Program-made: the position numbers and the translations under genes
Notes under the pieces: generated by a model
The model's input: the letters and a program-made list of their open reading frames with translations, nothing else
Database searches by the model: none
What the model was told of the DNA's origin: nothing
DNA from: a virus
Length of the DNA stretch: 24,990 nt
Direction: 5' to 3' (one strand)
IMG/VR virus record: IMGVR_UViG_3300046028_002005
Coordinates: 1-24,990 of that record
Shown: piece after piece, positions 5,883 to 6,778 of the stretch
Position numbering within the stretch: the first letter of the stretch is position 1
How the letters are laid out: the number at the start of each line of letters is the position of its first letter

Positions 5883-6055
5883 TGATATATGACTATGAAT
5901 GTCCAGGATGTGGTGATGTGCGACAGATAGAGCGCAAGATGACTGACCCCGAAGAGACATACATCTGTACCAATTGTCACAATGAGTTCAGACGTGTGTG
6001 GACTTCTCCTCCTGTGCAATTCAAGGGCAAAGGCTTCTACTCTACGGACAAATAA
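5882..6055 (+). CDS. FmdB-type zinc ribbon protein
   Basis: A 57-residue protein with MIYDYECPGCG at the start (Cys7, Cys10), a second knuckle CTNC (Cys29, Cys32) and a tail SPPVQFKGKGFYSTD. This is the classic FmdB/CxxC zinc-ribbon pattern, including the FKGxGFYxTD ending. Members are widespread in bacteria and actinophages; their molecular role is not well established. It starts in a TAATG overlap with the sigma-like gene and is the last gene of the rightward operon. Its TAA lies at the base of the terminator hairpin. Confidence 0.88.
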   Translation: MIYDYECPGCGDVRQIERKMTDPEETYICTNCHNEFRRVWTSPPVQFKGKGFYSTDK

Positions 6056-6093
6056 AGAACCCCACCGCAGGAAGGGTAGCGGTGAGGTTCTTT
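6054..6093. terminator. Bidirectional intrinsic terminator between convergent operons
   Basis: AAGAACCCCACCGC (6055-6068) pairs with GCGGTGAGGTTCTT (6079-6092), a 14-pair stem with one mismatch and a 10-base loop. The plus strand leaves TTCTTT at the 3' side, and the minus strand reads TTCTTTATTT. It lies just after the FmdB gene and 33 bases beyond the end of the minus-strand lysozyme gene, so it can stop both operons. Confidence 0.85.
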
Positions 6094-6125
6094 GTGCCCG
6101 AAGAAGAGGATGCACTTATAGTGTA

Positions 6126-6551
6126 TCAGTACCAGCCTCGTCTGTTGCTATGTTGGAGAGCGCGACACGCAGATTTTCCGTAGCGATGGTCAAGGTATCG
6201 TAGACCGTGTAAGACTTGGAGTTCAGGCTGGCTACTACGTTCTCTAAGGAGTTGAGCAATTCCGTAAGCCGTGCTTCTTGGGTTGTCGGCGAGGTGGTCA
6301 AACCTGCTCTCACGGGTCCAAAGGGTGAGCAGACACTGGATCTGGTTGTGGTTGTAACCGAGTGCTCTCGCGTAACTAACCGTAAGTGCTCTGTTCTCAC
6401 GCTTCTCCTCCATTGTCGCCTTCGTCCGTGCCTTTAGATAGGTTTTCTTTGAGGACAGGGGCACCTCGCCCGTCTGCTGTGCGGACACGAACACCGACAA
6501 CAGGGATAGTATTACCATCAAGGTCAAGCCACGTTTTACCTTCTTGTTCAT
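6126..6551 (-). CDS. Secreted lysozyme / lytic transglycosylase-like protein
   Basis: From ATG 6551 the product is 141 residues. Residues 1-25 form a near-ideal Sec signal peptide: basic NKKVKR, a hydrophobic core LTLMVILSLLSVFV, and VSA before QQ as cleavage site. The catalytic domain begins near residue 53. It holds LWTRESRF (Glu81, the expected catalytic acid of the SLT/goose lysozyme type), NPRSTAYGIAQLL (90-102), YLDHRYG and a final RRGWY. It probably cuts peptidoglycan after export. GGAG lies ten bases before ATG 6551. A shorter form without signal could start at ATG 6413 (GAAGG upstream). The first 155 bases overlap the upstream gene in another frame. Confidence 0.78.
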   Translation of the reverse strand: MNKKVKRGLTLMVILSLLSVFVSAQQTGEVPLSSKKTYLKARTKATMEEKRENRALTVSYARALGYNHNQIQCLLTLWTRESRFDHLADNPRSTAYGIAQLLRERSSQPELQVLHGLRYLDHRYGKSACRALQHSNRRGWY

Positions 6552-6681
6552 CTGTCTTCTTCTCCATTTCAAGCAACTGCTTATAGGTATCAGGGTAAAG
6601 ATGAGCAAGACGTATCAATGCACGGTCTCTTGCCCTTCTGTAGTTGCGTTGGCGCACTGCCTGTTTAGCAGCACCAACCAT
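6397..6681 (-). CDS. Hypothetical basic phage protein (ARDRALIRLA type)
   Basis: From ATG 6681 the product is 94 residues; an in-frame ATG at 6702 would add seven. GGAG lies about nine bases before ATG 6681, and that start avoids overlap with the membrane miniprotein stop at 6686. The sequence has a basic helix AVRQRNYRRARDRALIRLA followed by YPDTYKQLLEMEKK and WLDLDGNT. I recall similar short proteins in actinophages but no known function. The C-terminal half is polar and overlaps the lysozyme signal-peptide region. The basic helix suggests nucleic-acid contact. Confidence 0.72.
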   Translation of the reverse strand: MVGAAKQAVRQRNYRRARDRALIRLAHLYPDTYKQLLEMEKKTDEQEGKTWLDLDGNTIPVVGVRVRTADGRGAPVLKENLSKGTDEGDNGGEA

Positions 6682-6685
6682 TCTC

Positions 6686-6778
6686 TTATTCTCCGCCTCC
6701 ATTGTTCGTCTTATCCTCCCATACTATTAGAACGTAGGCTATCAACATCACCAGCAGTAGACCTAAGAAGTAACTCAT
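6686..6778 (-). CDS. Single-pass membrane miniprotein, 30 residues
   Basis: ATG 6778 overlaps the stop of the upstream gene (ATGA, 6775-6778). The product begins MSYF and is almost entirely one hydrophobic helix (LGLLLVMLIAYVLIVW), followed by a short charged, glycine-rich tail. A membrane helix of this kind two genes before the lysozyme could be a mini-holin or lysis regulator, but nothing proves that. It is very short, but the exact overlap and helix composition support it. Confidence 0.6.
   Translation of the reverse strand: MSYFLGLLLVMLIAYVLIVWEDKTNNGGGE

Follow-up and report, generated by a model that had tools for sequence, protein, structure and literature searches.

A lysozyme-like phage gene overlapped along its whole length by two genes in other reading frames

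Introduction

Can a gene for a lysozyme-like enzyme share every one of its bases with other genes, and if so, how might such an arrangement have come about? The question is raised by a locus where a run of small leftward genes comes to its end, in a whole virus record of 24,990 bases (hereafter the window). The run is faced convergently by a rightward sigma-factor gene and a zinc-ribbon gene, and close to its end three genes, here called B, L and C, occupy three different reading frames of the minus strand. We read the locus, with a probability of about 0.86, as a three-gene overlapping cassette in which L is doubly coding throughout and C has been overprinted on L.

Results

Layout of the locus

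B (6397–6702, minus strand; 101 aa, ATG at 6702, TGA at 6399–6397) is an orphan. L (6126–6551, minus strand; 141 aa, ATG at 6551) encodes a lysozyme-like (transglycosylase) enzyme that is predicted to be exported, and C (6116–6400, minus strand; 94 aa) starts with GTG and overlaps L by 275 nt. The earlier note on this DNA had described an out-of-frame overlap of 155 bases between L and the gene ahead of it. On checking the coordinates we found this to be exact: positions 6397–6551 of the minus strand, the last 155 nt of B, are also the start and export-signal region of L. The feature that was overlooked there is the frame of C, which covers the remainder of L. The stop of B and the start of C share the tetranucleotide GTGA (6397–6400, minus strand), which lies within Arg-Glu codons of L and is read in three frames; L spans this junction in the third frame, beginning 151 nt ahead of it. 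Since 155 + 275 - 4 = 426, all 426 bases of L, stop codon included, are shared with B or C. The overlap of L is therefore 100%, with B covering its first part and C the rest, and the four junction bases code three times. Four nucleotides before the GTG lies a Shine-Dalgarno-like GGAGGAG (6405–6411, minus strand), a putative ribosome site for C that also encodes part of the L residues MEEK.

C is followed by a strong terminator-like hairpin (6054–6093, minus strand; -26.4 kcal/mol for the whole stretch, z = -5.95); it lies between the convergent C and zinc-ribbon genes and is likely their shared terminator. On the other side of the cassette, a 30-aa ORF with a single transmembrane segment, H (6686–6778, minus strand; MSYFLGLLLVMLIAYVLIVWEDKTNNGGGE), shares 4 nt with the gene before it and 17 nt with B. 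A rule-based count places this small membrane protein, which neighbours the lysozyme gene, in 95 of 100 loci. Searches of the window's B and C against Pfam and PHROGs gave nothing usable, nor did those of the alignment members against PHROGs (lowest E-values: B 0.018, C 0.0044). NCBIfam gave no match to B, C or H, and tblastn against 50,697 phage records returned no match to the window's C or B (E ≤ 1) or to a second B (E ≤ 0.1). As B, C and H are without known relatives, no function is supported for them.

Distribution of the cassette

Relatives were gathered by five scans of viral contigs, to which one phage record was added. L was found in at least 373 loci, and among the matches listed 237 were distinct by their last 330 nt: 188 carry C, 42 belong to a sister clade that contains ct2KA10 (OX376641), and 7 are others, one of which (L188) is without the N-terminal part that L usually has. 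A tree built from 106 rows (58 C-positive, 42 sister and 6 other), with few columns behind it, placed each group on one side of a branch (100/98 for the C-positive rows, 99/84 for the sister clade and 100/99 for the others). The rows are related and partly near-copies, so that the counts given here are not independent. With a length of 0.97, the branch to the C-positive rows is long beside that of the sister clade (0.32), which looks as though L changed much at the time C arose.

All 42 sister-clade rows have between 1 and 7 stops in the frame of C and no start there, and in 30 of 41 of them L shares 4 nt with the ORF ahead of it. B and C each had strong matches in 240 loci, to which the sister clade and the outgroup contributed none. 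When the best 80 of 510 loci from the B scan were inspected, 79 carried L and C (the remaining one, L339, is cut off), while L was present in all of the best 80 of 572 C loci. At least 572 C-encoding stretches occur among viral contigs. The cassette belongs to a widespread group of uncultured phages, and the sister phages have L without this sharing. Because the sister clade and the outgroup are both without C, C was probably gained rather than lost; in the ancestor of the C-positive phages it would have been overprinted on an L that predates it.

Two C-like matches in the outgroup, in L216 (E = 2e-4) and L212 (E = 0.0067), were not counted as C, and we read them as the conserved sequence of L itself seen in another frame. 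In L216 (2600–3314), one outgroup phage, this alternative frame of L runs on without a stop into the ORF that follows, possibly a raw state for overprinting.

As to hosts, no host genome was found, the L relatives among genome contigs numbering 8: seven with 35–41% identity from actinobacterial groups and one from Erysipelotrichaceae at 29%. A WhiB gene stands ahead of L in ct2KA10 (4645–4998 of L082), and the window ORF at 1321–1698 matches gp49 of mycobacteriophages L5 and D29; these two observations point to actinobacterial hosts.

Conservation of the frame, start and junction of C

The tetranucleotide that joins the stop of B to the start of C is present in 188/188 C-positive rows: as GTGA in place in 176, and shifted 9 nt upstream in the other 12 (L345, L346, L349, L352, L358–L360, L367–L369, L372 and L373). 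In these 12 rows the junction, 8 times ATGA and 4 times GTGA, lies three codons further upstream; neither the usual GGAGGAG nor the MEE of L is present there, and yet the B stop and C start have moved jointly. The frame of C is free of stops in 167/167 rows as well as in a further 21/21, one of the 188 ending at a contig edge, and the third, unused frame carries 4–13 stops in the 167. L is wholly covered by B and C in 187/187 rows with complete ends (the 188th is cut by a contig end), the stop of C falling 4–82 nt past that of L. When the L protein is held fixed and its codons are shuffled synonymously at the codon usage of the window, the probability of a stop-free C frame is 0.013 per sequence. 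We also considered that C might be a frame left open by chance; the synonymous shuffle, the third-frame control and the sister clade rule this out.

The start of C is kept as well. The motif TGGAGGAR precedes it in 162/167 rows, and in the first 80 rows the L codon at this point is CGT (77/80) or AGT (3/80), so that the GTG of C is retained even where the L residue changes. These data bear on a further reading, in which frameshifting near the GTGA yields C only as a fusion with B and no new start is used. The frame of C is open for some codons before its start in the 21 further rows, except for two that stop right there, and frameshifting at a GTGA junction was raised by the authors on mycobacteriophage Ms6 in the part of their article available to us (PMC3111421). 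However, TGGAGGAR is retained before the GTG, all 12 shifted rows have a start codon (ATG or GTG) at the new junction, and L358 and L360 carry a stop in the C frame directly before it. We therefore regard production by fusion as very unlikely.

In the predicted structure of C, residues 1–40 are unstructured and residues 41–82 form a single 42-residue helix with a heptad pattern (pTM 0.37, mean pLDDT 71.3; blocks of residues 41–80 at 86–97). The pattern suggests that C is a coiled-coil protein and oligomeric.

Selection in the two overlaps

To see how the overlapping frames evolve, pairwise changes were sorted by their effect in both frames, using a simplified count that resembles OLGenie but is not that program; neither the count nor the bootstraps behind the bracketed intervals are tree-aware. 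Changes that are synonymous in L and alter C (dSN) were about half as frequent in the C-positive rows as in the sister clade (0.37 in 187 rows vs 0.68 in 42 rows), and changes that alter L and leave C unaltered were alike in the two groups (0.23 vs 0.21). The ratio dSN/dSS for C over L was 0.39 (0.29–0.54) in the C-positive set vs 0.87 (0.66–1.35) in the sister clade. For dNN/dNS the values were 0.70 (0.56–0.90) vs 0.89 (0.70–1.14), with overlapping intervals. The never-used third frame of the C-positive set gave 1.18 and 1.26, respectively. Split by halves, dNN/dNS was 0.59 in the second half of C and a weak 0.82 in the first, where the phantom frame of the sister clade gave 0.84.

Single codons of L were then compared where both groups have an identical fourfold-degenerate residue. 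Ala95 is GCT in 187/187 C-positive rows vs 2/42 sister rows and sets Leu45 of C; Pro109 ends in T in 187/187 vs 4/42 (Leu59 of C), Ala131 ends in T in 185/187 vs 19/42 (Leu81), and Gly97 ends in A in 186/187 vs 21/42 (Glu47). The third position of Ala88, on the other hand, is free, with all four bases. Along residues 42–82 of C, T occupied the third position of L with a frequency of 0.71 at heptad columns and 0.23 elsewhere in the C-positive rows, vs 0.15 and 0.22 at the same positions in the sister clade; because we picked the heptad register from these data, the real control is the sister clade.

A lower rate of synonymous change could in principle mean that C is not a protein at all and that an RNA structure or regulatory element at the operon end is being kept. 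Synonymous constraint alone cannot discriminate between the two, and there is a strong hairpin after C. Yet the constraint has the shape of a reading frame, with 0 stops in 188 rows, the start/stop tetranucleotide shifts by 9 nt along with the stop of B, the enrichment of T follows the heptad columns (in a register chosen on these data) and is not seen in the sister clade, and dSS is not depressed relative to the control (0.96 and 0.78). An RNA element in place of a protein thus seems extremely unlikely, and we continue to treat C as a protein-coding gene overprinted on L.

The overlap of B and L behaves similarly. Outside the overlap, B gave a dSN of 0.66 and its phantom L frame a dNN/dNS of 1.21; inside it, dSN was 0.37–0.49 and dNN/dNS for the L frame 0.37–0.58 (101 of 109 rows counted, the 8 without the anchor motif being excluded). 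Judged from these substitution patterns, purifying selection acts in both frames of both overlaps.

L as a lysozyme-like enzyme

L scores 53.1 bits on NCBIfam NF052397 (AggPromo_Cterm, aggregation-promoting factor C-terminal-like; cut-off 40) and matches PHROG 15428 and PHROG 12661. It stays below the Pfam cut-offs for SLT (16.7, cut-off 21.3) and Phage_lysozyme2 (20.8, cut-off 28.2). The hallmark of the family is a catalytic glutamate within an ES motif; E81 and S82 of L are invariant in 55 aligned rows, and E81 is the probable catalyst. The predicted structure (mean pLDDT 80.4) had 0 Foldseek matches at E ≤ 0.001, and L had 0 matches at E ≤ 0.1 to the sequences of solved structures. With VIA-align, the phi29 cell-wall enzyme gp13 came first (Z 6.6 and 6.3; rmsd 3.1 over 99 residues for the best row), a C. 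difficile hydrolase third (Z 4.6), and unrelated rows reached at most 3.7. L is predicted to cut peptidoglycan. Other cell-wall enzymes (PF01510, PF01551, PF00877 and PF05257) were found in 0/6 relatives of 38–41 kb, which says little, as PF01464 was likewise found in 0/6 although L is present.

The export signal and the internal ATG

The N-terminus of L (MNKKVKRGLTLMVILSLLSVFVSA-QQ) begins with basic residues, contains a hydrophobic core and shows VSA ahead of QQ. Its residues 1–24 (6480–6551, minus strand), comprising the basic N-terminus and the core, are encoded inside B and may serve as an export signal or as a signal anchor. By a rule that asks for a hydrophobic 14-mer and a net positive start, a basic start and hydrophobic segment were found in 188/188 C-positive rows, in 41/42 sister-clade rows (in the exception, L210, the region is absent at a contig end) and in 5/7 other rows (L188 lacks the region, and L213, with a longer N-terminus, failed the rule). 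Export of L looks like an old trait. The motif for signal peptidase I is not conserved: [AVS]xA follows the core in 63/188 C-positive rows, and outgroup rows have AEANA or AHAEA there, resembling classical cleavage sites. For this reason we do not claim cleaved secretion; L may be exported by the Sec pathway, or an uncleaved signal may keep it anchored in the membrane. Where the earlier note saw a textbook Sec signal, the basic start and core hold up in relatives and the VSA-like cleavage motif (63/188) does not; its picture of a predicted exported lysozyme whose signal is encoded inside the end of an upstream gene is conserved among them.

It had further suggested that the long start gives an exported enzyme and an internal in-frame ATG (6411–6413, minus strand; M47) a cytoplasmic one without signal. 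The ATG is indeed there, with GAAGG (6423–6419) 5 nt upstream, a usable distance. In the model, the first helix of the catalytic domain starts at M47, so a short form would retain nearly all of that domain, and a lysin with two in-frame starts has a precedent in lysA of Ms6, as described in the consulted portion of PMC3111421. Residue 47 is M in 168 of the 188 C-positive rows (I in 9, A in 8, T in 2, G in 1) and in 35 of the 42 sister rows (T in 3, W in 4). The ATG is therefore missing from 20/188 and 7/42 rows, and AAGG stands ahead of it in 126/167 C-positive rows. Moreover, in seven rows ATC replaces the ATG, yet GAGGA and CGTGA, the ribosome site and start of C, are kept. This argues that the internal ATG is conserved elsewhere because it coincides with the likely ribosome site of C, which accounts for the motif. 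The earlier note would have been refuted by relatives that conserve the short start alone; the opposite is seen, relatives keeping the long start with its hydrophobic core and not the short start. A short product may be made in some members, but a dual-start lysozyme strikes us as quite unlikely for the locus as a whole.

Discussion

Taken together, the data favour a cassette that would close a leftward operon. In this scheme B and C would be a coupled pair, joined by their GTGA or ATGA stop/start junction, with C probably translated by reinitiation after B and GGAGGAG assisting; L would initiate independently inside B, cross the junction and terminate inside C. As a best guess, we would take C for an accessory of this operon, coupled to it in expression, and not for a lysis enzyme. 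It is doubtful that C is a young coiled-coil regulator or partner of L, encoded over the catalytic domain of that enzyme, for example one that holds the enzyme inactive or times it; if it were, enzyme and regulator would be locked in one stretch of DNA and inseparable by recombination.

The un-overlapped L of the sister clade and the subgroup with a shifted junction together amount to a natural experiment on the birth of a gene inside an old one, and the cassette could show what a new overlapping gene costs the old protein. Annotation programs usually retain one frame of such overlaps. Consequently B, L or C may be absent from the annotation of many contigs, given the number of C-encoding stretches.

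In the open-licence PMC literature on overlapping and overprinted genes in phages, on endolysins and on actinophages, we found no report of this cassette and no lysin gene wholly covered by two others. Overprinting itself is an established kind of gene origin, as set out in the available sections of a review (PMC8227390), which also treat the phiX174/G4 overlaps A/K and D/E; the variant described here is new and unusually complete.

Several known systems come close to the arrangement. Phages of the ct2KA10 type (OX376641 and relatives L165–L210) have an orthologous L with an export signal and neither B nor C; in OX376641, L follows the WhiB gene with a 4-nt overlap, unlike the long overlap with B. 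Among the lytic transglycosylase genes of Streptomyces phages, HUN43_00052 of Endor1 has a catalytic domain homologous to that of L (hhalign probability 99.1, 88 columns) but, unlike L, stands clear of its annotated neighbours, with gaps of 1 and 35 nt. Tgl of Kayvirus is a lysozyme-like transglycosylase exported by an N-terminal signal, according to the excerpt consulted of PMC7150955; L is likewise lysozyme-like with a predicted N-terminal signal, and the AXA cleavage motif is conserved in Tgl but not in L. A GTGA stop/start junction at a lysin locus is also found in gp1-lysA of Ms6, where a second in-frame lysin start is embedded (PMC3111421, in the part cited above). There, however, it is the lysin that begins at the junction, with the embedded gene in frame; L begins 151 nt earlier, and here the embedded gene is out of frame.

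In topology the cassette resembles phiX174. Gene K of phiX174 and G4 spans the A/C junction in the third frame, and L resembles it as a third-frame gene laid over a stop/start junction whose bases serve three frames. K, however, is a small accessory protein, and phiX174 is an ssDNA phage of small size; in the cassette the spanning gene L is the older, predicted enzyme, the flanking genes are the orphans, and the records are of about 39 kb.
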